Source: Gilvimarinus polysaccharolyticus
Lineage (GTDB): Bacteria > Pseudomonadota > Gammaproteobacteria > Pseudomonadales > Cellvibrionaceae
Assembly: GCF_001187555.1 (NCBI RefSeq)
Contig: NZ_LFIJ01000002.1
Location: forward strand, 1,054,545-1,118,544
Reading direction: 5' to 3'
Length of the DNA stretch: 64,000 nucleotides
Below, piece by piece: positions 3,172-16,790 of this stretch (position 1 is its first letter; each line of letters starts with the position of its first letter). The notes beneath the pieces were generated by a model. It was not told the DNA's origin. It did not search any database and saw only the letters and a program-made list of their open reading frames with translations. The position numbers and the translations under genes were made by a program.

Positions 3172-3362
3172 CGCGGTACAACCCAAGTGCGTAGGCCTTA
3201 AGCGATTTGGCCTGCGCTGAGCAATCACATCTCCTCCCCCCCCGGTATTATTTGCTGTTCTTTATACGGTTTCTTATGCCTAGCGCCAAGTAGGCTTCTT
3301 ATTTGTGTATTTTGAGCTTTACCGGCGGTCGGTACCGGCCGTAAGTTTTTGCTGAAATATAA

Positions 3363-3381
3363 GATGCATTATATTTACATC
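3363..3381. promoter_or_regulatory. NsrR-type operator 1
   Basis: GATGCATTATATTTACATC is an imperfect 19-bp inverted repeat matching the known gammaproteobacterial NsrR form GATGYATTTNAAATRCATC. It is centred about 100 bp before ytfE. NsrR is a Fe-S repressor that releases DNA on NO. The match is read by eye. Confidence 0.75.
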
Positions 3382-3411
3382 TATTTCGCGTGGGTGTAGC
3401 ATCACGATTAA

Positions 3412-3430
3412 GATGCATAAATTATGAATC
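3412..3430. promoter_or_regulatory. NsrR-type operator 2
   Basis: GATGCATAAATTATGAATC is a second 19-bp inverted repeat of the same pattern, its centre 49 bp from the first. It lies about 40 bp before the ytfE start, where it would overlap a promoter. Confidence 0.7.
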
Positions 3431-3471
3431 TTTTGTGCGTTGCATAGTACAACCATACATAAGGAGGGCTT

Positions 3472-4140
3472 ATGAGCCTGTTAACGCAAGCGGTTGGGGA
3501 GGTTGCTCGTGATATTCCAGGGGCTACCGAGGTGTTTAGGCGCTACGGCATTAATTTTTGTTGCGCCGGTGATAGGCCTTTATGGCAAGCCGCAGATGAT
3601 AAGCAGTTGGCGCAAGAGGATTTAGAGCAGGCGTTGTTGGCACTTAACCATCATCCTAGGGCAGATAGCAGCGTGTGGACAGAAAAAAACGATATCGAGT
3701 TAATTGAGCATATTTTGACCCGTTACCACGATGTTCACCGACGCCAATTACCCGAGTTAATACGTTTAAGCGGACGGGTAGAGTTGGTGCACGGTGGGCA
3801 CCCCAACTGTCCAGTTACCTTAACCGCACATTTAGAGCAGATACAAGCTGAGCTAGAAGCTCACATGGGCAAAGAAGAGCAAGTACTGTTTCCAATGATT
3901 AGCCGCGGAATGCATGGCGTAGCTGCAGGCCCTGTGCAAGTAATGCGACACGAGCATAACGACCACGGCAAAGCGTTAGAGATGGTCCGGACGTTAACTC
4001 ATGATCTAACACTGCCCGAGCAGGCATGTAACACCTGGCAAGCGTTGTACCGTGGGTTAGAAGAGTTTGAGATCGATATGGTTGAGCATATTCATCTTGA
4101 AAACAATGTTTTATTCGATCGTATCGATAACAGAGGCTAA
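3472..4140 (+). CDS. ytfE: Iron-sulfur cluster repair di-iron protein YtfE/DnrN (RIC)
   Basis: RIC proteins repair Fe-S clusters damaged by NO or oxidants, using a non-heme di-iron centre in a hemerythrin-like bundle. At 222 residues it has the family length. The N-terminal ScdA domain carries the paired cysteines C30-C31 in YGINFCCAGDRPLW. Candidate iron ligands are H86, H131 and E135 (HMGKEE), H162 in RHEHNDHG, and H206/E210 in EHIHLENNVLF, matching the E. coli YtfE spacing. AAGGAGGG lies a few bases before the ATG. It is the first gene of a unit with norZ (6-base gap), behind two NsrR-type boxes, which fits NO-induced expression. Confidence 0.95.
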   Translation: MSLLTQAVGEVARDIPGATEVFRRYGINFCCAGDRPLWQAADDKQLAQEDLEQALLALNHHPRADSSVWTEKNDIELIEHILTRYHDVHRRQLPELIRLSGRVELVHGGHPNCPVTLTAHLEQIQAELEAHMGKEEQVLFPMISRGMHGVAAGPVQVMRHEHNDHGKALEMVRTLTHDLTLPEQACNTWQALYRGLEEFEIDMVEHIHLENNVLFDRIDNRG

Positions 4141-4146
4141 ATAGGT

Positions 4147-6423
4147 ATGGGACAGTATCGCAAATTGTGGTGGGGTTTAATTGCTGTAGTCGCTATTACT
4201 TTTGGGCTGCTAGGTTACTTTGGTGCCGAGGTATACCGCAAAGCTCCACCAATACCTGGGTGGGTGGTAACCGATCAGGGTGAAGTGTTGATGACCGAGG
4301 AGAGTATCCTCGACGGCCAGACAGCCTGGCAATCGGTAGGTGGGATGCAGTTGGGTTCTATTTGGGGGCACGGTGCGTATCAGGCACCCGATTGGACCGC
4401 CGATTGGTTGCATCGGGAGCTGTTAGCCTGGCTTGAGATTGCCGCGCAAGAGCAGTTTGGCCGAGCGTATAGTGCGTTAGATGGGCGTCAGCAAAATGCC
4501 TTGAAGTACGATTTAACCCAAGCTTACCGTGTTAATACATACAATGCAGAAGCCGACTCTCTGGTTGTTAGCCAGCGGCGGGCACAGGCGATTGCGCACA
4601 CCGCTGATTATTACAATCGTTTGTTTGGTGGCGAGGCATCACTGCAGCCGACCCGTGAAAGCTATGCGATGAAAGAAGTAACGCTGCCCGATGATGAGCG
4701 TCGCGCTAAGCTTACTCAATTTTTCTTTTGGACCGCGTGGGCGGCCAGTACTGAGCGTTACCCCGATGGCGCAACTTACACCAACAACTGGCCTCACGAA
4801 CCGCTGATTAACAACGTGCCAACGGCCGAGAATATTGTATGGTCGGTAGTGAGCGTTATTTTGTTAATTGCCGGTGTGGGCAGTTTGGTTTGGGCGTGGG
4901 CTTTTTTACGTAAAGAGGAGGAAGAGGTTGCCCCTCCTACACACGATCCTATTGTCAGCTTTGTTCTGACGCCTTCGCAAAAATCGCTGGCAAAATATTT
5001 ACTGGTAGTTGTTGGGTTGTTTGTGGCCCAAGTATTTTTGGGCGGTGCAGTGGCGCACTACACCATTGAAGGTCAAAGCTTTTACGGTATCGAGCTGTCC
5101 AACTGGTTTCCTTATTCGTTATTAAGAACTTGGCATATTCAAGCCGCGATGTTTTGGATTGCCACAGGTTTTCTGGCTGCTGGTCTATTTTTAGCGCCTA
5201 TCATTAACGGCGGTAAAGACCCTAAATTTCAAAAGCTTGGAGTAGATATTCTGTTTTGGGCGTTGATCTTAGTAGTGGTCGGCTCATTTACCGGCAATTA
5301 CTTTGCTATTAACCAGCTTATGCCACACCAGTGGAGCTTTTGGCTTGGGCATCAAGGCTACGAATACGTCGATCTAGGTCGCCTGTGGCATATTCTTAAA
5401 TTTCTGGGGATCGTGTTTTGGTTGCTGTTAATGTTGCGTGCTATTGCTCCGGCACTGCGCCAAGACGGTGATAAAAACTTATTAGCGTTGTTTACCGCAT
5501 CGGTGATCGCCATTGGTTTGTTTTACGGCGCGGGCCTGGCTTATGGTGAAAGAACCAACTTATCGGTGATGGAATACTGGCGCTGGTGGGTTGTGCATTT
5601 ATGGGTTGAAGGCTTTTTTGAGGTGTTTGCCACCACGGCCTTGGCGTTTATATTTTTTAATATGGGCTTAACTTCACGCACAACTGCAACTGCCGCCTCG
5701 CTCGCTTCGGCATCGTTGTTTATGCTTGGCGGTGTACCTGGTACGTTTCATCACCTGTACTTTTCAGGTACTACCACACCGGTTATGGCGGTGGGTGCAA
5801 CGTTTAGTGCCCTTGAGGTGGTGCCACTGGTGGTACTGGGCTATGAGGCGTGGGAGAACTGGAGACTTAAATTCAAAGCACCTTGGATGCGCAACATTAA
5901 ATGGCCCCTGTACTTTTTTGTGGCGGTAGCGTTTTGGAACATGCTGGGCGCAGGGGTAATGGGCTTTATGATCAATCCTCCGATCTCGCTGTATTATATT
6001 CAGGGGCTTAATACCACAGCAAGCCATGCTCATGCGGCACTGTTTGGGGTTTACGGATTTTTAGCGCTAGGTTTTAGTCTGTTGGTGTTGCGTTATATTC
6101 GGCCGCAGTTAGTGTTTAGCGAACGTTTAATGAGAACAGCATTTTGGACGCTGAATGGGGGCTTGGTGTTAATGCTGTTTACCAGTTTATTGCCCATTGG
6201 CTTTATTCAGTTTGTCGCCAGTGCCTCTGAAGGGTTATGGTACGCCCGCAGTGAGGGCTTTATGCAGCAACCATTGCTGGAAACATTGCGCTGGGTACGC
6301 ACTATTGGCGATGTGGTCTTTATTGTCGGTGCGCTCGCCGTTGCTTGGCAGGTCGTAAAAGGCGTATTTAGCGGCTATGGCCAAAGCAATCCCCCTGCGG
6401 CTGATCCCAATACACCCGTATAA
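4147..6423 (+). CDS. norZ: Quinol-dependent nitric oxide reductase (qNOR)
   Basis: This single-subunit membrane enzyme reduces NO to N2O using quinol. Its 758 residues match qNOR: one N-terminal membrane helix (about 9-29), a periplasmic cytochrome-c-like domain without a CXXCH heme site (about 35-225), then a 12-13-helix NorB-type catalytic core. Core histidines are visible in LLRTWHIQAA, RLWHILKFLG, WWVVHLWVEGFFEVFATT, GTFHHLYFSG and ASHAHAALFG, covering the heme b, heme b3 and FeB ligands. WVEGFFEV carries the glutamates typical of NOR. It follows ytfE in one unit, so the pair removes NO and repairs its damage. No nirS/K or nosZ is present in the window, so detoxification is at least as likely as full denitrification. 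Confidence 0.96.
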   Translation: MGQYRKLWWGLIAVVAITFGLLGYFGAEVYRKAPPIPGWVVTDQGEVLMTEESILDGQTAWQSVGGMQLGSIWGHGAYQAPDWTADWLHRELLAWLEIAAQEQFGRAYSALDGRQQNALKYDLTQAYRVNTYNAEADSLVVSQRRAQAIAHTADYYNRLFGGEASLQPTRESYAMKEVTLPDDERRAKLTQFFFWTAWAASTERYPDGATYTNNWPHEPLINNVPTAENIVWSVVSVILLIAGVGSLVWAWAFLRKEEEEVAPPTHDPIVSFVLTPSQKSLAKYLLVVVGLFVAQVFLGGAVAHYTIEGQSFYGIELSNWFPYSLLRTWHIQAAMFWIATGFLAAGLFLAPIINGGKDPKFQKLGVDILFWALILVVVGSFTGNYFAINQLMPHQWSFWLGHQGYEYVDLGRLWHILKFLGIVFWLLLMLRAIAPALRQDGDKNLLALFTASVIAIGLFYGAGLAYGERTNLSVMEYWRWWVVHLWVEGFFEVFATTALAFIFFNMGLTSRTTATAASLASASLFMLGGVPGTFHHLYFSGTTTPVMAVGATFSALEVVPLVVLGYEAWENWRLKFKAPWMRNIKWPLYFFVAVAFWNMLGAGVMGFMINPPISLYYIQGLNTTASHAHAALFGVYGFLALGFSLLVLRYIRPQLVFSERLMRTAFWTLNGGLVLMLFTSLLPIGFIQFVASASEGLWYARSEGFMQQPLLETLRWVRTIGDVVFIVGALAVAWQVVKGVFSGYGQSNPPAADPNTPV

Positions 6424-6673: not shown

Positions 6674-7507
6674 ATGATTTCTGGCATTACCGTCTCTAGC
6701 GCCGCGCTACAACATTTGAAAAAGCTTCTGCAAGAAAAAGAGGTGGCGGCGGTACGAATATTTGTGGTCGAAGCTGGTACCCCACGCGCAGAAACGTGTT
6801 TGGGTTATTGCCAGCCGAGTGATGCAAAAGAGTCTGATTTAACTGTATTTGAAGAAGGTTTAAAATTTTACATTGATAAAGCCAGCTTGCCCTATCTAAA
6901 AAATTTAGAGGTGGGGCTAAGTGAACAAAAGCTATTAACCATTCGTGCACCCAATGCCAAAGTACCGCACAGTGCACAAGGCAGTGAGGTAGAGTTTACC
7001 CGTGAATGTCCCTCTAAAATGGTGCCGTCGGGCGAGGATTTACTGATACCCAAGGGCGCCGAGGCAACCGTGACGCAAGCGTTAGGCGCCAGCTACACAT
7101 TGTTATATCACGGCAATTTAATCCGCATAGACGGTAAAGATGCGGATGCGATCGGCTTGGTGTCTAATGGCTTAAGTTTTGATGCGCCGGCCGATGGGAA
7201 TATTTCGGTCGATCAAGTTTGGCATGCGCTGTCGATGGTGTACGACCCTGAAATTCCGACCAATATTGTTAGTTTAGGGCTTGTGTACGAGGTGACAGTT
7301 GATAATGATGCCGGATCGGTTAACGTAGATATGACACTGACCGCGCCCGGTTGTGGTATGGGTGATGTACTGGTCGATGATGTTAAGCGTCGCTTAGCCG
7401 AGGTGCCTTTTGTGCGCTCGAGTAACGTTAATATGGTGTTTAACCCTCCGTGGCATTACAACATGATGAGCGAAGAGGCGCAGTTGGAAACAGGTATGTT
7501 TTTTTAG
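6674..7507 (+). CDS. NfuA N-terminal-type domain fused to SufT (DUF59) Fe-S assembly protein
   Basis: The 277-residue protein joins two Fe-S biogenesis modules. Residues 1-100 match the degenerate A-type domain at the N terminus of NfuA: RIFVVEAGTPRAE parallels RVFVINPGTPNAE, with C42 and C46 in ETCLGYCQP, and RAPNAK parallels KAPNAK. Residues 105-277 are SufT: FTRECPSKMVPSG, GNLIRIDGKDADAIG, then the MIP18/DUF59 domain with MVYDPEIPTNIVSLGLVYEV (188-207) and TLTAPGCGMGDV containing C227, ending in FNPPWHYNMMSEEA. The NfuA C-terminal scaffold domain (CxxC) is absent. The ATG follows AAGGGTTACT. The position behind norZ suggests cluster delivery or repair under NO stress, which is inference. 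Confidence 0.88.
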   Translation: MISGITVSSAALQHLKKLLQEKEVAAVRIFVVEAGTPRAETCLGYCQPSDAKESDLTVFEEGLKFYIDKASLPYLKNLEVGLSEQKLLTIRAPNAKVPHSAQGSEVEFTRECPSKMVPSGEDLLIPKGAEATVTQALGASYTLLYHGNLIRIDGKDADAIGLVSNGLSFDAPADGNISVDQVWHALSMVYDPEIPTNIVSLGLVYEVTVDNDAGSVNVDMTLTAPGCGMGDVLVDDVKRRLAEVPFVRSSNVNMVFNPPWHYNMMSEEAQLETGMFF

Positions 7508-7535: not shown

Positions 7536-8717
7536 TTAATCGTTAAAATCCAACCATAAAGCACTGTATCCGCTGGCGGGATAATGTGCGCTTATTGGTT
7601 TTTTGTGTTTGGTCAGCGTAAATCTACCACTGTGATCTAACACTGCCTGAAGCATGGTTTGCAGCTCGAGTCGCGCCAATGGCGCGCCTGGACAAACATG
7701 TACTCCTGCGCCATACAGTAAGCTTTGATGTTGATCCCGGCCCCATTTAAATTCGTTAGCATCGGCAAAGACACCGTCATCGCGGTTGGCTGCCACCCAG
7801 TTTACCGTTATTAGCTCACCGGCTTTAATTGTGCGCCCACCTAACGTTACGTCGCGGGTTGCTTTACGGCGGTTGGTTACGAGTGGCCCATGGCGTCTTA
7901 GCATTTCTTCAATCGCTTCGGGTACATCTTGGCGGTTGTCTCGCAAGTGTTGCTGTAGGGCCGGATTAATAGCTAAAAAGTGCAACATAATACCCATAGC
8001 CGCGGCTATAGTGCCAATCTCGCCCATGGTCCAATTGCGCATAATACTAACGATATCAGCATCGCTAATGGGTTGTTGGCGACCCTCAATATTAACCGTA
8101 GCGCTTAATATTTCATTGGTAACATCATCTTCGACTTGTGCTAAATTGGCGCGTCGCGCGGTTAATAATGTATCAATATAACCGCTAAAACGCTGTGCTA
8201 TTTCGTCCATGGCGGGGCGGTTTCCTGCCAAGGTAGCTGCATGGTTGTCGTGTGCCCAGCGGCGCAATGGCTCATGCAGATCGTCTGGCCAACCTAAAAA
8301 CTCACATTGCACTTGTACCGAGAACTGCTCCGCCATATTAGCTATAACATTTACGTTTTTTTGATTCTTTACGGTTAACGCTAAGCGCTTGGCAATGCGT
8401 TGGCACTGTGGGGTAAAAGCTTTTATATGTGCTTTATTAAAAAAAGGCTCTATGAGTTTTCGATAGCGGCTGTGCTCCGGGTGGTCTAGTCCATTAGGTA
8501 CACTGCGGTGAGTTGATACAATATTACTAAAGGTTTTCTCATCGCTAATCACCTGCTTAACCTCGGCGTGACTAAATGCCCACCAGCCTTTATTGAGGTT
8601 ATTGTCGGGGCTATGAGCTATCGGGCAGCGCTGGCGCATATCGTCAAATGTTTCGAGTGGGTGCGTGAGTAGATTGTTATGATCGATAAAGTCGTCTGTG
8701 GTTTTTTTGTCGCACAT
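7536..8717 (-). CDS. Cytochrome P450, soluble bacterial type
   Basis: This 393-residue P450 has the heme-thiolate loop LLYGAGVHVCPGAPLARLEL (cysteine near residue 342), with Tyr replacing the usual Phe. It has the K-helix ExxR in EEMLRRHGP and the C-helix-region motif HSRYRKLIEPFF. The I helix reads NWTMGEIGTIAAAMG rather than AGxxTT with an acid-alcohol pair, similar to what I recall for CYP116-like enzymes. The start is the second ATG, 8 bases after GGAGG; a frame extending to 8732 exists but lacks a ribosome site. No ferredoxin or reductase partner is nearby. The substrate is unknown. It is convergent with the SufT-fusion gene. Confidence 0.9.
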   Translation of the reverse strand: MCDKKTTDDFIDHNNLLTHPLETFDDMRQRCPIAHSPDNNLNKGWWAFSHAEVKQVISDEKTFSNIVSTHRSVPNGLDHPEHSRYRKLIEPFFNKAHIKAFTPQCQRIAKRLALTVKNQKNVNVIANMAEQFSVQVQCEFLGWPDDLHEPLRRWAHDNHAATLAGNRPAMDEIAQRFSGYIDTLLTARRANLAQVEDDVTNEILSATVNIEGRQQPISDADIVSIMRNWTMGEIGTIAAAMGIMLHFLAINPALQQHLRDNRQDVPEAIEEMLRRHGPLVTNRRKATRDVTLGGRTIKAGELITVNWVAANRDDGVFADANEFKWGRDQHQSLLYGAGVHVCPGAPLARLELQTMLQAVLDHSGRFTLTKHKKPISAHYPASGYSALWLDFND

Positions 8718-9102
8718 ATGACCGGCCTCCAAAAGAGTCGTGAGCGTAAAAAAGTCGCCGTAAAAACCATATCGTCACCAGAAATATCGATGCCAGATTT
8801 ATAGAAAATGGTTGATCGGTATTTTTTTATGGACGAGATTCGCATGGCTTTTGCTATCGCTAATAGCGAGGCGTCTTATCATCCTACCTTAAAAAAATAC
8901 TCATAATCCGCCATTAACTCTTATGTGTCCGTAGCTACCTCAGTATAGGTAATGACTGAGGAGTTGGCGTAAGTGTATGGTAGTAGATGTGTTTAAAGCT
9001 AAAGATACGCTGTTAAATTCTCGGCTTTCATTTCGGCATTCGATACATAAATGGCACTAAATATTTTGTCCGCGAATGATCAAACAACTCAGTAAAAATA
9101 TG
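8718..9102. other. Intergenic region upstream of the P450 gene
   Basis: No credible gene is seen. An inverted repeat CCTCAGT...ACTGAGG lies at 8938-8961 and a small CGCT-AAT-AGCG hairpin near 8866. The P450 promoter must be here but was not identified. Confidence 0.45.
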
Positions 9103-9642: not shown

Positions 9643-10137
9643 TTAAGGCTGAGCCGCCAAGGACTGCACCTCTAGGTAGCGCGCCAATGCTTGGTACAAC
9701 GGCTTAGGAATAACCTCTTGTGGTTCGCAGGTGTCTAAAAAGTTTTTCAGCTGTACGCCCAGTTCGGTGTTGCCGCTAATAGCTAATTGACGCCGAAAGA
9801 ACAAAGTATCTGGATCTGTTTGGCCCATGATGATCTCGAGCAAAGCTGCCGATTGCGCGCGTAAGGTTACGTCCTCGGAGTCGTTGGCCGTGGTGATCTG
9901 TAACTGATGGTCTGCTGCGGTTAGTGACAAGTCCACGGCAATATCGCTCACTGTAATTCGCACTGTGCGGCCCTGTAAAAACTCCAGATCGCCGGCTTTA
10001 AGGGCCGTATTAAACAGCCGGTTAAGGGCTGCTTGAGCGATTTTATTAAGGGCAGCTGCAGGAATAATGTTAGGCGCAAGGCGAATGGCAATACGCGGGT
10101 CGGGGCAAAGTCGTAATAAGTTAAAAATAGCAGTCAT
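9643..10137 (-). CDS. ubiT: UbiT, SCP2-domain factor for anaerobic ubiquinone synthesis
   Basis: UbiT (YhbT) is a lipid-binding SCP2-fold accessory protein needed with UbiU-UbiV for O2-independent ubiquinone synthesis. The 164-residue protein has an N-terminal helical segment (LCPDPRIAIRLAPNIIPAAAL), an SCP2 core with GRTVRITVSDIAVDLSLTA, and RAQSAALLEIIMGQTDPDTLFFRRQL split over the conserved turn and helix. The ATG lies 8 bases after GGAGG, so the N-terminal extension to 10167 is rejected. It is divergent from ubiU with only 71 bases between starts, so the two sets probably share a control region. Confidence 0.92.
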   Translation of the reverse strand: MTAIFNLLRLCPDPRIAIRLAPNIIPAAALNKIAQAALNRLFNTALKAGDLEFLQGRTVRITVSDIAVDLSLTAADHQLQITTANDSEDVTLRAQSAALLEIIMGQTDPDTLFFRRQLAISGNTELGVQLKNFLDTCEPQEVIPKPLYQALARYLEVQSLAAQP

Positions 10138-10208
10138 GGTAGTTACCTCCAGCGGGGATACTAACAAAACTTACAGCTCTCGCCATCTACACTAAATAGG
10201 TATAAGCG

Positions 10209-11204
10209 ATGGAATTACTATGCCCAGCTGGCAGCCGGCCAGCGGTAAAAGCAGCACTAAAAGCCGGTGCTGATGCGATTTATGTGGGGTTGCGTGGCGA
10301 CACCAATGCGCGGCATTTTGCCGGCCTTAACTTTGATGCCGAGGGCTTGGCCGAGGTGGCAGCACTAGTGCATCGACAGGGCCGACGTTTGCATGTGGCG
10401 ATTAACACATTTGCCCACCCGTGTGATTATGCTGTGTGGCAACGCGCAGTCGACGATGCTGTAAAAGCCGGCACTGATGTACTTATTCTTGCCGATATGG
10501 CGGTGTTGGCCTATGCCGCCGAGCGTTACCCCTCGGTAGAGCGTCATTTGTCGGTGCAGGCGTCGGCCACCAATGCCGCCGCCGTTGAGTTTTATCAAAA
10601 AACCTATGGTGTGACGCGTGTGATATTGCCTCGGGTTTTATCGCTAAAGCAAGTTAGTGCGCTGGCTCATACCGTGAGTGCCGAGCTTGAAGTGTTTGCC
10701 TTTGGCAGTTTGTGCATTATGGCTGAGGGGCGATGTTATTTAAGTTCGTATATGACGGGAGAATCGCCTAATAATTCTGGCGCTTGCTCGCCTGCGCCGT
10801 TCGTGCGCTGGCAAGAGCAAGAGGGTGTACTTGAAGCGCGACTCAATGGTTATTTAATCGACCGGTTTGAGCCGCAAGAAAACGCCGGTTACCCCACCTT
10901 GTGCAAGGGACGCTTTGAGGTTGATGGCGAACCGTTTCACGCGTTAGAGGAACCCACAAGTTTGAATACTTTAAGCTTGCTACCTGCATTGCAGCGCGAT
11001 GGCATAAAAGCGGTAAAGATTGAGGGGCGACAACGCAGTCCCGCTTACGTTGCACAAATTACCCGCGTGTGGCGAGCGGCGATTGATCAGCTGTTGGATA
11101 ACCCCGAAGGTTATAACGTTAGTGGTGCGTGGAATGCACAACTGGCGCGCTTATCCGAGGGCGCGCAAACAACCCTAGGCGCTTATCACCGGAGCTGGCG
11201 ATAA
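10209..11204 (+). CDS. ubiU: UbiU, U32-family O2-independent ubiquinone hydroxylation protein
   Basis: With UbiV, UbiU hydroxylates the ubiquinone ring without oxygen (prephenate is the reported donor) and carries a [4Fe-4S] cluster. The 331-residue protein begins MELLCPAGSRPAVKAALKAG and has the U32 motif EVFAFGSLCIMAEGRCYLSS. The four cluster cysteines C169, C176, C193 and C232 fall at the E. coli UbiU positions. KIEGRQRSPAYVAQ is the C-terminal U32 signature. Its stop overlaps the ubiV start as TAATG, implying translational coupling. Confidence 0.96.
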   Translation: MELLCPAGSRPAVKAALKAGADAIYVGLRGDTNARHFAGLNFDAEGLAEVAALVHRQGRRLHVAINTFAHPCDYAVWQRAVDDAVKAGTDVLILADMAVLAYAAERYPSVERHLSVQASATNAAAVEFYQKTYGVTRVILPRVLSLKQVSALAHTVSAELEVFAFGSLCIMAEGRCYLSSYMTGESPNNSGACSPAPFVRWQEQEGVLEARLNGYLIDRFEPQENAGYPTLCKGRFEVDGEPFHALEEPTSLNTLSLLPALQRDGIKAVKIEGRQRSPAYVAQITRVWRAAIDQLLDNPEGYNVSGAWNAQLARLSEGAQTTLGAYHRSWR

Positions 11205-12115
11205 TGTTTGCTAAAGTAAAAGATTCTATGTCTCATATTAAGCTTTCGGTTGGGCCAATATTGTATTATTGGCCGGCAGAATACGTGCGTGAGTTTTATC
11301 ATCGCGTGGCAGGTTCGCCCGCCGATATTGTTTATCTAGGAGAGACAGTTTGCCCTAAAAGACGTGAGCTGGACCTGCCAGATTATCTGCAGTTAGCCCA
11401 TCAATTACGCGAGGCAGGCAAAGAGGTGGTGTTGTCTACCATGACGCTGCTGGAGTCGCCGGCGGATTTGCGTATGTTACGGCGTTATTGCGATAACGGC
11501 GAGTTTACCATCGAGGCCAATGATATAGGCGCAGTCGGTTTGCTGCGCGAGCAGGGATTACCGTTTACCGTAGGCGCCGCTATTAATTGTTATAACGCTC
11601 AAACTCTCCATCAATTAGTACAGTTTGGTATGACCCGTTGGCTAGTGCCGGTCGAGCTATCACGCGAGTGGTTACAGCAACTACTGAGTCAGCCAGAGGT
11701 GGCCGATATTCGCAGCGCCTTTGCTGTAGAGCTGTTTGCGTTTGGCCATTTACCGTTGGCTTGGTCGGCGCGGTGTTTTACGGCGCGCTCGGAAAACCGG
11801 GCCAAAGATGAATGTGATTTGTGTTGCATTAAATACCCAGATGGCCGACCCGTTTACAGTCAAGAGCGGGATAAGCTGTTTACCCTTAACGGTATTCAGA
11901 CGCAGTCCGGGCAACGTTACAATTTGATTGATGATCTTCCCAGTATGGCGGGTCTGATAGACGCCGTGCGGCTTAGTCCGCAGGCACAGGAAACCCCTAA
12001 TTGGATTTATGAGTTCCACGCCGCGCGCTCTAGCAACACGTATCGCTCCCGCGAGCCCGACGATAGCAACGGTTATTGGCACCGTTTGGCGGGTATTAAA
12101 ACTTTATCGGTCTAG
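11204..12115 (+). CDS. ubiV: UbiV, U32-family partner of UbiU
   Basis: UbiV forms the heterodimer with UbiU for anaerobic ubiquinone synthesis. The 303-residue protein has SVGPILYYWPAEYVREFY, GETVCPKRRELDLPDYL, AINCYNAQTL and ARCFTARSENRAKDEC. Cluster cysteines are C50, C191, C204 and C208, equivalent to E. coli UbiV C39, C180, C193 and C197 with an 11-residue N-terminal offset. The start used is the ATG overlapping the ubiU stop, with GGAG upstream; an ATG eight codons later (SHIKLSVG follows) is an alternative nearer the E. coli N terminus. The end GYWHRLAGIKTL matches E. coli. Confidence 0.95.
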   Translation: MFAKVKDSMSHIKLSVGPILYYWPAEYVREFYHRVAGSPADIVYLGETVCPKRRELDLPDYLQLAHQLREAGKEVVLSTMTLLESPADLRMLRRYCDNGEFTIEANDIGAVGLLREQGLPFTVGAAINCYNAQTLHQLVQFGMTRWLVPVELSREWLQQLLSQPEVADIRSAFAVELFAFGHLPLAWSARCFTARSENRAKDECDLCCIKYPDGRPVYSQERDKLFTLNGIQTQSGQRYNLIDDLPSMAGLIDAVRLSPQAQETPNWIYEFHAARSSNTYRSREPDDSNGYWHRLAGIKTLSV

Positions 12116-12203
12116 GCCTTATTATTTTTTCCTTTTAAATTTTGTGATCTAAGCGCCAATGGCGTTCAGCAACAAAGCATTTCCCCGCACAAAGGAATCA
12201 TTT

Positions 12204-14351
12204 ATGTCGCAAGATACAGAGTCATCAGCTACAGCACTATCAGACCAATTTAATTTGCAACCAGCCTCGGAGGATATCTGGGATCAAAAGTACCGACTTA
12301 AAGATCACAATGAGAATCCGCTAGATCAAAGCATAAATGATACTTGGGCGCGGGTGGCGACTGCACTCGCCAAGGTAGAGCCTAAGCGTCGTGACTATTG
12401 GCATAAAGAGTTTATTTGGGCTCTAAAAAATGGCGCAATACCTGCCGGGCGCATCATATCCAACGCTGGCGCCGAAGCTTATAAACCTGCCACCTCGACC
12501 ATCAACTGTACCGTGTCGGGCACCATCAGCGACTCGATGGAAGATATTTTACAAAAAAATCTTGAAGCGGGGTTAACTCTAAAAGCCGGCTGTGGCATTG
12601 GTTATGAGTTTTCTACTTTAAGGCCCAAAGGTGCGTATGTGGCCGGCGCCGGTGCTAATACCTCGGGGCCTTTGTCCTTTATGGATATATTCGACAAGAT
12701 GTGTTTTACCATTTCATCGGCCGGTGGTCGGCGCGGCGCTCAGATGGCGACCTTTGATGTGCATCACCCGGATGTTAGCGAGTTTATTCGTGCCAAGCGC
12801 GAGGCCGGTCGACTGCGTCAATTTAACTTATCATTGCTGATTACCGATGATTTTATTCAGGCGGTAAAAGCCGATGCTATTTGGTCGCTGAGCTTTCCTG
12901 TTACCGATAAAGACAAACAGCGTGAAGGTTTAGCTGCCGATAACCCCGAGCAACTTGTTTGGCGTCGGCTTGATCACTTGGCGTCACATTATTTGCGTAA
13001 TGAACGTGGTGAGGTTGCCTGTAAGATCGTTAAAAAAATACCAGCACGCCAGTTGTGGAATCAAATAATGAGCTCGACTTACGATTTTGCCGAGCCCGGT
13101 TTTATTTTAATTGACCGCGTTAATAAATATAACAACAACTGGTTTTGTGAAGAAATACGGGCAACCAACCCTTGCGGCGAACAACCTTTGCCCCCCTACG
13201 GTAGCTGTTTGTTGGGCTCTGTTAATTTAACCCAGTGTGTCAACAACCCATTTACTGAGCAGGCCGAATTTGATTGGCAGAAATTTCGCAAATTGGTACA
13301 AGTATTTACCCGAATGCTAGATAACGTCGTCGAGATGAATGGTTTGGCACTTGAGGGGCAACGCAATGAAATCGTACGCAAACGCCGTCACGGCATGGGA
13401 TTTCTTGGTTTAGGATCGGCGTTATCTATGTTAACGATTGCCTATGGTAGTCCAGCATCGGTGGCTTTTACCGAGCAGGTGAGCAAAGAGTTGGCGTTGG
13501 CTGGCTGGCGAGAGGGGCTGGCACTGGCCAAAGAGAAAGGCTCGGCTCCCATTATGGATGAGTTGTTTGAAATCACCCCCGAGCTACTTGCTAAACAGCC
13601 TACGCTGGGGGACGAGTACGCGCTGGGCGATAAAGTGCCGGGTAAGGTCTTGCTGATTAAATACAGCCGTTATATGCAACAGTTGGCCGATGAAGACCCA
13701 GAGCTAATAGCGCAGCTGCTAGAGACTGGCGCGCGCTTTACTCACCACAGCTCGATTGCCCCAACCGGAACCATCTCTTTATCGTTGGCCAATAACGCCA
13801 GCAATGGCATTGAGCCTAGTTTTGCTCATCACTATGCGCGCAATGTAATTCGCGCGGGTCGTAAAAGTAAAGAAAAGGTCGATGTTTTCTCTTATGAGCT
13901 ATTGCGCTATCGGCAGTTGATCGATCCCAGCGCCAAGCCCTACCCAGAAGATGGCGAGACAGGGCTGCCCGAGTATTTTGTGGTGTCTGATCAAATAACA
14001 CCAGAGCAACATGTGGATGTACAGGCGGCGGCGCAAAAGTGGGTTGACTCATCAATCTCCAAAACCATTAATGTACCTACCGATATTGCCTACGATCGTT
14101 TTAAAGATATTTATATGTATGCCTATGAGAAAGGCTTAAAAGGTTGCACTACCTTTCGCTTTAATCCCGAAGCTTTTCAAGGGGTTCTCGTCAAAGAGCA
14201 AGACCTTGAAAGCACAGTGTATGAGTTTGAGCTAGAAGACGGCTCACGTATTGCCTGCAAAGGCAACGAAGAAATAGTGTACGACGGTGAGACACACACG
14301 GCCGCCAACCTTTTTGATGCCATAAAAGAAGGCTACTACGGTAAGTTTTAA
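12204..14351 (+). CDS. nrdJ: Class II (B12-dependent) ribonucleotide reductase catalytic subunit NrdJa
   Basis: This adenosylcobalamin-dependent RNR makes deoxyribonucleotides with or without oxygen. The 715-residue protein carries the RNR radical-site motif ATNPCGEQPLPPYGSC, STINCTVSGTI with a likely redox cysteine, GCGIGYEFSTLRPKGA, and HHSSIAPTGTISL, with CTTFRFNPE near the end. AAAGGA lies 7 bases before the ATG; the extra frame from 12159 has no ribosome site. The C-terminal part of the enzyme is encoded separately as nrdJb 43 bases downstream, like the split NrdJab of Pseudomonas aeruginosa. No NrdR-box pair or cobalamin riboswitch was recognised upstream. Confidence 0.95.
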   Translation: MSQDTESSATALSDQFNLQPASEDIWDQKYRLKDHNENPLDQSINDTWARVATALAKVEPKRRDYWHKEFIWALKNGAIPAGRIISNAGAEAYKPATSTINCTVSGTISDSMEDILQKNLEAGLTLKAGCGIGYEFSTLRPKGAYVAGAGANTSGPLSFMDIFDKMCFTISSAGGRRGAQMATFDVHHPDVSEFIRAKREAGRLRQFNLSLLITDDFIQAVKADAIWSLSFPVTDKDKQREGLAADNPEQLVWRRLDHLASHYLRNERGEVACKIVKKIPARQLWNQIMSSTYDFAEPGFILIDRVNKYNNNWFCEEIRATNPCGEQPLPPYGSCLLGSVNLTQCVNNPFTEQAEFDWQKFRKLVQVFTRMLDNVVEMNGLALEGQRNEIVRKRRHGMGFLGLGSALSMLTIAYGSPASVAFTEQVSKELALAGWREGLALAKEKGSAPIMDELFEITPELLAKQPTLGDEYALGDKVPGKVLLIKYSRYMQQLADEDPELIAQLLETGARFTHHSSIAPTGTISLSLANNASNGIEPSFAHHYARNVIRAGRKSKEKVDVFSYELLRYRQLIDPSAKPYPEDGETGLPEYFVVSDQITPEQHVDVQAAAQKWVDSSISKTINVPTDIAYDRFKDIYMYAYEKGLKGCTTFRFNPEAFQGVLVKEQDLESTVYEFELEDGSRIACKGNEEIVYDGETHTAANLFDAIKEGYYGKF

Positions 14352-14394
14352 GGCTTATGAAAAATTAACCAGATGATTCATTAGGGTGTTTAGT

Positions 14395-15057
14395 ATGAAC
14401 GCTATTGTGATTGATAAAAAAATTGTGGCTGTTTCAATTAAAGCCGAAGAAGAGTCAAAAGTTCCAGATATAGAGAAAATGAACGAGAAGTTTGATCGGC
14501 CAGAATCATTAGAGGGCAGTACGTATAAAATAAAAACGCCGCTGTCCGACCATGCGCTTTACATCACAATTAACGATGTGGTGTTAAACCCCGGCACCGA
14601 TCACGAGATGCGCCGACCATTTGAGGTATTTATCAACTCAAAAAACCTAGAGCATTTTCAGTGGGTGGTAGCACTTACCCGTGTAATCTCGGCGGTTTTT
14701 AGAAAAGGCGGCGATGTGACGTTTTTGGTCGAAGAGCTAAAGGCGGTGTTCGATCCGCAAGGCGGTTACTTTAAGTCGGGCGGACGCTTTATGCCATCGT
14801 TAGTGGCTGAGATAGGCGATGCTATTGAAACCCACATGAAACGCATCGGTTTGATAGAGGGCGAGTCTTTATCGGATATACAAAAAGAAATTCTGGCAGA
14901 AAAACAGGAAGAATTTGAAAAGAAACATAAAATAAAACCCGGCTCGGGTGATTTTCCACCCACGGCAACTTTATGTCTTAAGTGCCATACTAAAGCCGTG
15001 ATTATTTTAGATGGCTGTAAAACGTGTTTAAGTTGTGGCGCCTCTAAGTGTGGTTAG
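14395..15057 (+). CDS. nrdJb: NrdJb, TSCPD/Cys-rich C-terminal component of the class II RNR
   Basis: This 220-residue partner supplies the C-terminal portion of the split class II RNR. A TSCPD-like region spans about residues 40-150 (YITINDVVLNPGTDHEMRRP, EHFQWVVALTRVISAVFRKG). A Cys-rich tail follows, LCLKCHTKAVIILDGCKTCL ending SCGASKCG, with three CxxC-like pairs suitable for zinc binding or thiol relay. The start is the ATG at 14395 after AGGGTG; a GTG three codons upstream is possible. It is cotranscribed with nrdJa and converges on moaB. Confidence 0.9.
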   Translation: MNAIVIDKKIVAVSIKAEEESKVPDIEKMNEKFDRPESLEGSTYKIKTPLSDHALYITINDVVLNPGTDHEMRRPFEVFINSKNLEHFQWVVALTRVISAVFRKGGDVTFLVEELKAVFDPQGGYFKSGGRFMPSLVAEIGDAIETHMKRIGLIEGESLSDIQKEILAEKQEEFEKKHKIKPGSGDFPPTATLCLKCHTKAVIILDGCKTCLSCGASKCG

Positions 15058-15094
15058 TTTTTAAATGTTGCTGCTAGTACCAAGGGCTCGATAA

Positions 15095-15119
15095 TAATGG
15101 CCGCCTGGTGCGGCCATTA
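15095..15119. terminator. Hairpin between convergent nrdJb and moaB
   Basis: TAATGGCCGC pairs perfectly with GCGGCCATTA around CTGGT. There is no clean T-run, but its place between convergent genes suggests a shared terminator. Confidence 0.6.
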
Positions 15120-15139
15120 GAGTTTGCTGTAAAGTGCGT

Positions 15140-15655
15140 TTAACGCGTTAAATGGCCAACAAAATTACACGGTCCTTGGCGAGCATCGAGCTGCGGTTGC
15201 AGTATCTTGCTCCATCCGGTACGGCAAGCGCCAGTAGATCCGGGTAAACAGGCGATCAAGGTTTTGTTGGCAAAGCCTGCAAGCGCCCTAGATTGTATGG
15301 TCGATGTGCCGATCTCTTGCCACGATATATGTCTAAACAACTCGCCAAAACCTTCGACATCTTTGTCCAATAATGGCTTGATTGCCTCGGGTGTAGAGTC
15401 TCGGTCGGTAAAGCCGGTGCCGCCGGTAATCAAAATAACCTGCACGTCAGCGCGCGCGATCCAGCTTGATACTTGCGCGCGAATATCATAAACGTCATCT
15501 TTTAGCAGTGCGCGATCGGCCAGTAGGTGGCCTTCCTCGGTCAATGCGTCAACGAGGTATTGGCCAGAAGTGTCAGTGGCGTAATCGCGGGTGTCCGATA
15601 CAGTTAATACCGCAATATTAAGCGGCTGTTTTTCTGTAGGTAGTGTGTGTGCCAT
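15140..15655 (-). CDS. moaB: MoaB, molybdopterin adenylyltransferase family
   Basis: MoaB/Mog-family proteins adenylylate molybdopterin before metal insertion. The 171-residue protein has the MoCF-binding fold: IAVLTVSDTRDYATDTSGQY, VQVILITGGTGFTDRDSTPE with the catalytic-type TGGTG and D-D/E residues, FRHISWQEIGTSTIQSRA, and the C-terminal CLPGSTGACRTGWSKIL. In some species MoaB is not essential because Mog does the job; here it is the only such gene visible. It lies 31 bases after moaA, in the same operon behind the Moco riboswitch. Confidence 0.95.
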   Translation of the reverse strand: MAHTLPTEKQPLNIAVLTVSDTRDYATDTSGQYLVDALTEEGHLLADRALLKDDVYDIRAQVSSWIARADVQVILITGGTGFTDRDSTPEAIKPLLDKDVEGFGELFRHISWQEIGTSTIQSRALAGFANKTLIACLPGSTGACRTGWSKILQPQLDARQGPCNFVGHLTR

Positions 15656-15686
15656 AACGGTTCTCGTAAAAAAGGTGTGTTGTCAC

Positions 15687-16664
15687 TTAGCCGCCAATCA
15701 TGGCTAGCTGCCGAGTAGAGCCCGGATTTTGTTGATGTAAGTTGTGGCTAATGGTTTTGCCTTTTATCGCTTGCTGTAAAAAATCCATGACCGGTTGCGA
15801 ATCATCCGATTGCAATAAGTGCCGTAGACTTTGATGCTGGTCGACAAACAAACACAAAAACAATGCCCCTTGGCTCGAGACTCGCAAGCGATTGCAGGTG
15901 TTACAGAAATCTTTACTGTAAGGCATAATCAAGCCAATGCCACCGCTGTAATCTGGATGCCAAAATTCTCGAGCCGGGCCCGCATGGGTGCCGGGTAAGC
16001 GCTCTTGCCAGTGATTGGCTTTAAGCTGGTTAATAATCGCCTGGCCACTTAAATGGTGACGATTAAAAAAAGCTTCGTTATCGCCGGTCCGCATCAGCTC
16101 AATCAGGCGCAAAGTAATAGGCCGTGCTTTAACAAAGTCAAAAAAGTCATCCATGGCATCGTCGTTATAATGCTTCATAAGTACGGCGTTGACTTTAATG
16201 TTGTTAATGCCTAACTCGGCGGCACGCGCTAAACCTTGCAGTATTTGTTGCAGTTTGTTGTGGCCGGTAATTAATTCAAACTTGGCGTGGTCGAGGCTAT
16301 CAATGCTCACGTTAAGCGCATCTAGTCCTGCTTCGTGCCAAGCATCTATATCTTTAGCCAAACGGTAACCATTGGTGGTTAGCGCGACGGTCTCGATGCC
16401 GGGAGTCGCTTTGCAAATGCGGATGATATCCACTAAATCTTTGCGCAGCGATGGTTCGCCGCCAGTGATTCGCACTTTGCGTGTGCCGAGCTTGGCAAAA
16501 GCGGCGACGAGGCGACGAATTTCATCGAGAGTTAAATCTTGGGCGCGGGCTTCGGCGCCGCAATCGGTACCATCTGGCAAGCAATAATCGCAGCGAAAAT
16601 TGCATACCTCGGTAACCGACAGGCGCAAATAACTAAAGCGCCGGTCAAACGAGTCGGTCAGCAT
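15687..16664 (-). CDS. moaA: MoaA, GTP 3',8-cyclase (radical SAM)
   Basis: MoaA catalyses the first step of molybdenum cofactor synthesis from GTP. The 325-residue protein has the radical-SAM cluster motif CNFRCDYCLPDG, the RITGGEPSLRKDL motif, and the second cluster motif CNTCNRLRVSSQGALFLCL, and ends in the family's GlyGly tail (MIGG). The start is the ATG giving MLTDSFDRRFSYLRLS, which follows the GGAAAGG of the riboswitch; the frame continuing to 16757 runs through the riboswitch and is not coding. The gene supplies cofactor for narG. Confidence 0.96.
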   Translation of the reverse strand: MLTDSFDRRFSYLRLSVTEVCNFRCDYCLPDGTDCGAEARAQDLTLDEIRRLVAAFAKLGTRKVRITGGEPSLRKDLVDIIRICKATPGIETVALTTNGYRLAKDIDAWHEAGLDALNVSIDSLDHAKFELITGHNKLQQILQGLARAAELGINNIKVNAVLMKHYNDDAMDDFFDFVKARPITLRLIELMRTGDNEAFFNRHHLSGQAIINQLKANHWQERLPGTHAGPAREFWHPDYSGGIGLIMPYSKDFCNTCNRLRVSSQGALFLCLFVDQHQSLRHLLQSDDSQPVMDFLQQAIKGKTISHNLHQQNPGSTRQLAMIGG

Positions 16665-16790
16665 ATAACACCTTTCCAAATAAGGGAGGCAAGCCGGTTT
16701 CCCGTATTGCCCTGGCGCATTTGCAGGGTATCCGTAAATGCGCGGCCAGCGCGCCATAACCAGAAGGTGTTAGGCGGGTAGGCTCGGTGT
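16665..16790 (-). ncRNA. Moco RNA motif (molybdenum cofactor riboswitch) in the moaA leader
   Basis: On the minus strand the leader opens ACACCGAGCCTACCCG and ends GCCTCCC-TTATTT-GGAAAGGTGTTAT just before the moaA ATG. This matches the E. coli moaA riboswitch end as I recall it (GCCTCCC, six bases, then GGAAAGGTGT). Internal pairing supports a structured RNA: GCGCATTT with AAATGCGC (8 bp), CTGGTT with AACCGG, and AACACCTT with AAGGTGTT, the last covering the ribosome site. In E. coli the element lowers moaA expression when Moco is plentiful. A covariance-model search against RF01055 would confirm it. Confidence 0.85.

Follow-up and report, generated by a model that had tools for sequence, protein, structure and literature searches.

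An NfuA-type A-domain joined to long-form SufT, and its nitric oxide-related gene neighbourhood in Gilvimarinus polysaccharolyticus and related gammaproteobacteria

The window described here is a stretch of 64,000 nucleotides from contig NZ_LFIJ01000002.1 of Gilvimarinus polysaccharolyticus, a member of the Cellvibrionaceae. It carries ytfE, norZ and a third gene in that order on one strand (Table 1). The gap between norZ and the third gene is 250 bp, with no terminator-like or promoter-like site on the + strand. The third gene is a single ORF for a 277-residue protein, in which the degenerate A-type half of NfuA is joined to a complete long-form SufT with its DUF59 core. Its neighbours are ytfE, norZ, a cytochrome P450-like gene and ubiTUV, and it does not lie beside suf genes. 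A preliminary description of this DNA had already read the ORF as such a fusion standing directly behind ytfE and norZ, and both the domain content and the arrangement hold.

Table 1. Features of the window; the last two rows refer to fusion loci L161 and L045.
Feature	Position	Strand	Evidence or remark
Putative NsrR-like palindrome upstream of ytfE	3361..3383		18/22 specified positions, best in the 64 kb window
Second putative NsrR-like palindrome upstream of ytfE	3410..3432		17/22, tied second in the window
ytfE (RIC, iron-sulfur cluster repair di-iron protein)	3472..4140	+	NF008221 287.1 bits, TIGR03652 239.5 bits, both over cut-off
norZ / qNor-type nitric oxide reductase	4147..6423	+	PF22085 and PF00115
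NfuA-N::SufT fusion gene, 277 aa, ATG start	6674..7507	+	ORF, alignment, NCBIfam models
NfuA-N-like degenerate A-type domain, residues 5-105	6686..6988	+	TIGR03341, Pfam Fe-S_biosyn, alignment, fold match
A-domain cysteine C42	6797-6799	+
A-domain cysteine C46	6809-6811	+
Complete long-form SufT unit, residues 107-275, with long-SufT N-terminal extension	6992..7498	+	TIGR03406
DUF59 / FeS_assembly_P core, residues 180-252, with C227 and DPE (191-193)	7211..7429	+	Pfam, alignment, fold match
SufT-unit cysteine C227	7352-7354	+
ubiT (anaerobic ubiquinone synthesis accessory factor)	9643..10167	-	NF047962 over cut-off
ubiU (anaerobic ubiquinone synthesis), possible client	10209..11204	+	NF047963 over cut-off
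ubiV, possible client	11129..12115 (listed ORF)	+	NF047965 over cut-off; family match starts near 11240
SdhB/FrdB-like ORF, L161	11082-11843		similar ORFs in L162, L163, L164
SdhB/FrdB-like ORF, L045	3137-3853

The layout of the fusion is confirmed by model scans. In NCBIfam, the long SufT model TIGR03406 is covered whole by residues 107-275 (223.5 bits, cut-off 202.6), and the match to the NfuA model TIGR03341 is restricted to residues 5-105 (E 4e-22; 78.9 bits against 269.35 for full NfuA). Pfam places Fe-S_biosyn at residues 5-86 (29.8 bits, cut-off 26.3) and FeS_assembly_P at residues 180-252 (65.6 bits, cut-off 23.5). As the long SufT model includes an N-terminal extension of its own, the protein consists of three parts: the A-type domain, the SufT extension and DUF59. 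The first 100 or so residues are related to NfuA and the A-type proteins, as proposed from reading, and the NfuA model is preferred to the general A-type model TIGR00049 (2.6e-06). The alignment shows that AETCxxYC and APN(A/S)K are carried by both the N-domain and the NfuA of the same genome. The C-terminal CGC motif, present in the A-type protein of this genome, is absent from the N-domain. The Nfu CxxC scaffold domain is missing, as had been described: the Pfam scan finds none in the fusion, and the match to TIGR03341 stays below the full cut-off. Pfam and NCBIfam scans likewise find no DNA-binding or signalling domain. The same full-length arrangement is found at 17 loci, which rules out chance and a faulty assembly.

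An AlphaFold2 model built from the 17 sequences has a mean pLDDT of 81.8 and a pTM of 0.54, the latter leaving the orientation of the domains unsure. Against solved structures, the predicted model resembles DUF59 proteins, with TMt values reaching 0.86, and IscA/SufA, with values reaching 0.78. There is also a weak fold match to CIAO2B (E about 0.01).

In the alignment, C227 and the DPE motif are invariant in all 17 fusions. C42 is kept in 16 and C46 in 15, with both lost from the L165 fusion; C111 was considered as a further cysteine and ruled out, as it is not conserved among the 17. The preliminary description had placed C42, C46 and C227 correctly, but the two A-domain cysteines are not invariant. 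This makes docking a likelier role for the N-domain than cluster ligation, and the alignment indicates that it is probably not a ligand site. To judge from dN/dS values of 0.025-0.17 in six of eight pairs, the other two being saturated, the N-domain is under purifying selection. These observations bear on a first alternative, whereby the protein is a SufT paralogue in ordinary SufT work, its A-type domain a passenger or dimerisation aid and its NO neighbourhood incidental. The complete long SufT unit, over its cut-off, and the loss of both A-domain cysteines from L165 fit this alternative. Purifying selection on an N-domain that is kept in all 17 speaks against it, and the alternative is considered improbable.

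The fusion is an extra, paralogous protein, as a normal NfuA and a separate SufT are encoded in the same genome. The NfuA of G. polysaccharolyticus is complete, and its standalone sufT lies elsewhere, after sufS-like and A-type genes (named from reading). Of ten further fusion genomes asked, all ten have a standalone SufT, and so do fusion genomes G002, G006, G025, G026 and G031; an NfuA-type ORF is present in 16 of 16 checked, with the L045 genome outside this count. The presence of a separate SufT in every fusion genome asked also counts against ordinary SufT work as the role of the fusion.

Fusions were recognized by a profile of the first 163 positions, over the full span of which they score at least 147 bits, with all other matches at 130 bits or less. 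Non-fusion matches mostly end near position 105, and few reach about 147. In total, 17 fusions were found, and all were aligned. The profile search detects the fusion in 8 of 144 genomes of the window's family and in 12 of 390 genomes of the order sample, the latter including four of the family's eight. At strict thresholds, which are blind to fusions built on a very different SufT, it occurs in 1 of 340 genomes of the class sample (1e-75), namely the window's own, and in 3 of 388 of the phylum sample (1e-72), all three inside the order; no fusion beyond the order appears in either sample. An earlier single-query search of a class sample returned 1 of 369, again the window itself. Named carriers include at least Marinimicrobium agarilyticum, Marinimicrobium sp. 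ABcell2, M. alkaliphilum, Gilvimarinus agarilyticus, Saccharospirillum sp. MSK14-1 and Marinobacter fuscus, and the order-level carriers would fall in Saccharospirillaceae and Marinobacter. Among the matches listed in the search that gave these names, the other 74 of 80 loci align over about residues 1-107 only, like ordinary NfuA. M. agarilyticum carries norZ and ytfE close to its fusion, and Gilvimarinus agarilyticus gave no NorZ or YtfE match. On plasmids, a tblastn search matched 249 records, none of them with a place covering 80% of the fusion query. The survey that the preliminary description called for indicates that the fusion is rare and not the usual form of SufT.

In quick, unrooted trees, a branch with SH-aLRT 99 separates the 17 fusions from the standalone homologues, for the SufT half and for the N-domain alike. 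For the SufT tree, 109 matches gave 46 standalone rows once duplicates and fusions were removed; for the NfuA tree, 108 matches gave 103 distinct sequences, of which 78 were used. Long branches were flagged for L165 and L045 in the former and for L165, the window, L036, L037, L034, L035 and one NfuA in the latter. The grouping of both halves is compatible with a single fusion event. One origin is allowed and not proved, as the trees are unrooted and quick, and midpoint rooting of the SufT tree places standalone SufT within the fusion group. Local fusion of a neighbouring A-type gene with sufT was considered as the origin, but the N-domain matches NfuA far better than the general A-type model and is without the CGC motif, which makes such an origin less likely. 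Two fusion-like rows with one internal stop (G031:C26 and G006:C5) overlie adjacent A-type/sufT gene pairs and were left uncounted.

Flanks of 6-10 kb were read on each side of most of the 17 fusions (14 and 5 kb for L166). A NorZ gene lies near six and a YtfE-like gene near nine, with one or the other at 12, all within 7 kb. The flanks read at L035, L036, L037, L158 and L159 contain neither, a further point for ordinary SufT work. Five of the nine YtfE-like genes, those of the Marinobacter group, are distant hemerythrin-type relatives; the two of this group that were scored, in L161 and L045, fall below the YtfE cut-offs. With the same markers, no YtfE-like or NorZ gene occurs at 74 nfuA loci (1.34 Mb; all 74 pass the positive control), nor at 20 nfuA or sufT loci from 14 fusion genomes, where the one marker matched is SufT itself, at the sufT loci. 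The 74 loci were taken irrespective of whether their genomes have NorZ or YtfE, a weakness that the 20 same-genome loci offset in part. Pooled, the controls give 0 of 94 ordinary loci against 12 of 17 fusion loci, which again argues against an incidental neighbourhood around a protein in ordinary SufT work.

The neighbourhood recurs in different forms. norZ directly precedes the fusion in two lineages, the window and L160 (129 bp, from ORFs), and a divergent YtfE-like/fusion pair with a gap of 89-324 bp is seen in all five Marinobacter-group loci. Within the family, NorZ (E up to 1e-60) is encoded by 6 of 8 fusion genomes and 31 of 136 others (Fisher p = 0.004), and YtfE by 3 of 8 and 26 of 136 (p = 0.20, not significant); these tests ignore relatedness, and the 17 loci, which form three groups, are not independent. 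The frequent NO-gene neighbours suggest a dedicated helper for rebuilding Fe-S proteins under NO or oxygen-free conditions.

The published NsrR consensus is gATGyAT-N5-ATrCATc (PMC1274295), and an NsrR site, AAGATGCATTTAAAATGCATCTT, has been reported before ytfE of an E. coli strain (PMC5320621). The two putative NsrR-like palindromes before ytfE-norZ in the window have starts 49 bp apart. Directly before the window's fusion the best score is 13/22; its control would accordingly come by read-through from ytfE-norZ. Across the fusion set, 7 of 17 fusions have a score of at least 16/22 within the 350 bp upstream, as against 39 of 3000 random pieces drawn from the fetched loci, fusion loci included. 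Five of these seven come from a single group, and the site in L167 extends as far as the start codon. In L160 a 17/22 site lies before norZ, with the fusion next. The upstream regions of 8 of the 17 score 13 or less, and the NsrR-like protein of the window's genome reaches 128.7 bits against a cut-off of 182. The NO-stress neighbourhood that had been noticed in the window recurs at 12 of 17 loci, putative NsrR operators stand before several of these units, and the units may be under NsrR regulation. A further NsrR-like match in the window (12541-12563, 17/22) is probably due to chance, as it lies inside a ribonucleotide reductase-like ORF.

FNR/Dnr/Anr boxes were also considered as a shared control. 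The TTGATNNNNATCAA box, with up to one mismatch, occurs within 300 bp upstream of 1 of 17 fusions (L165), and so no general control of this class is seen. The L165 box is perfect, with 0.13 expected over all 17 by simple shuffling. It stands about 267 bp before that fusion together with an NsrR-like site (16/22), and the fusion concerned is the divergent one that has lost both A-domain cysteines. The whole window has 42 TTGATNNNNATCAA matches with up to two mismatches, where 25.7 are expected; 1 of 100 shuffles reached 42.

The proposal that the fusion serves cluster repair after NO damage agrees with the neighbourhood, but is too narrow, as two carriers lack NorZ and YtfE and genes of anaerobic life are also found nearby. 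Genome searches show that G002 and G006 carry the fusion without NorZ and without a TIGR03652-type YtfE, and no NO gene is near the fusion in L158 or L159. On these grounds, a broader role in anaerobic life is a serious rival. The fusion would then serve specifically in the maturation of a few anaerobic Fe-S enzymes (e.g., UbiU/UbiV, HemN, MoaA) and not in repair after NO damage, with NO genes near it only through the clustering of denitrification genes. Such a role accounts for the carriers without NorZ/YtfE. It also draws on ubiTUV-type genes near the fusion in the window, L036 and L166 (Ubi models scored for the window only), on UbiT-like SCP2 genes in the five Marinobacter-group loci, and on hemN-like and moeA-like genes in L035 (named from translation). 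UbiU is an Fe-S protein. Yet the gene immediately beside the fusion is norZ in two lineages and YtfE-like in another, ubiUV is directly adjacent at none of the loci read, and no client gene is common to the 17. A role confined to anaerobic enzymes is held to be rather unlikely. In the window, positions 9643-16757 form an oxygen-free-life cluster of ubiT, ubiU and ubiV, followed by a large ribonucleotide reductase-like ORF and moaB/moaA-like ORFs, the last three named from reading the translation.

A related layout has been reported from the alphaproteobacterium Oligotropha carboxidovorans, where the protein is OCA5_c02770. One sentence of a 2016 paper mentions an Nfu N-terminus fused to SufT in this organism, and takes it as support for linked Nfu and SufT function (PMC4982691). 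As in the window, an N-terminal part of Nfu is joined to SufT; the passage leaves the type of the N-terminal domain, A-type or other, unstated and gives no neighbourhood or regulation. The earlier impression that the layout was undescribed needs qualifying in view of this sentence. The fusion is real, conserved and rare, and its layout is not wholly new in print. A literature search, which covered few subscription journals, found no paper devoted to the fusion family or to its link with NO genes.

Several known systems share parts of the fusion. The degenerate A-type domain of NfuA (YhgI/GntY, TIGR03341) is matched by residues 5-105, but SufT takes the place of the Nfu CxxC cluster domain. The fusion covers the whole model of long-form SufT (TIGR03406), including DUF59 with its conserved cysteine; it differs in its extra N-terminal A-type domain, its position away from suf genes (a suf-operon location is usual, not obligatory) and the separate SufT also present. 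The A-type carriers IscA, SufA and ErpA share the predicted fold of the N-domain, whereas they have three conserved cysteines and the fusion has no C-terminal CGC and replaceable first cysteines. CIA2/CIAO2B and other DUF59 targeting factors use DUF59 for Fe-S client targeting, as proposed for the fusion, which is without CIA partners and without a P-loop NTPase. HCF101 is a further DUF59-containing targeting factor.

The explanation towards which the evidence leans, if only slightly, is that the fusion is a paralogous Fe-S maturation adaptor linked to NO or anaerobiosis, combining the docking A-type domain of NfuA with a long SufT. The A-type domain would dock Fe-S clients in the apo- or damaged state, and/or A-type partners, for example ErpA. 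Docking fits better than ligation, given the replaceable cysteines of this domain, and the A-type domain of E. coli NfuA is reported to target apo-proteins and not to bind a cluster (PMC8593673). The SufT unit, through DUF59 and C227, would connect to the assembly machinery and help to hand a cluster to the docked client. In Mycobacterium tuberculosis, C62 of SufT, which presumably equals C227 of the fusion, is reported to be needed for contact with SufS and SufU (PMC9045647). Cluster binding by SufT itself "remains elusive" in the account of PMC8593673. nfu and sufT mutations are described as synergistic in Staphylococcus aureus, with aconitase of the double mutant near 2% (PMC4982691). YtfE is presented as an NO-induced repair factor for damaged clusters that interacts with isc proteins (PMC8593673, PMC9268430). 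The adaptor would act beside the housekeeping NfuA and SufT when NO, or a switch to denitrification, destroys clusters or raises demand.

A protein that sequesters or senses has to be weighed against such an adaptor. Here the A-domain would bind an apo-client and the fusion would regulate Fe-S supply under NO with no cluster delivery. Having neither the Nfu cluster domain nor the A-type CGC, the fusion keeps C227 as its one sure cysteine, which would suit this arrangement. The Pfam and NCBIfam scans found no DNA-binding or signalling domain, however, and a sufT mutant elsewhere is reported to lose the activity of Fe-S enzymes (PMC4982691), as expected of a positive factor. Such a function is judged very improbable.

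The maturation adaptor may be put in a more specific form, offered tentatively and with somewhat less than even confidence. It would be a one-protein targeting module for NO-responsive Fe-S maturation, in which two client-facing domains, the NfuA A-type domain and SufT DUF59, fused once, came to lie next to the YtfE/NorZ response and spread across gammaproteobacteria of three families. If true, this would give a DUF59 protein a defined stress niche and show that the A-type domain works as a docking part that is movable and independent of its cysteines. What SufT/DUF59 does at the molecular level is unsettled, and a fusion with the NfuA docking domain by NO-defence genes hints at the partners and the timing of SufT. 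The fusion also offers a small system in which a clear phenotype can be sought. Should the NO link hold, a maturation factor would be added to a response that is usually described through NO removal and YtfE.

Two other neighbours recur. The P450-like gene of the window (7536-8732, - strand; named from reading) has counterparts in L156, L157, L162, L163 and L167, and this gene is found near the fusion in 6 of 17 loci for no evident reason. Each of the five Marinobacter-group loci also has, close to its fusion, a solitary gene for an SdhB/FrdB-like Fe-S subunit, with domains scanned for L161 only.
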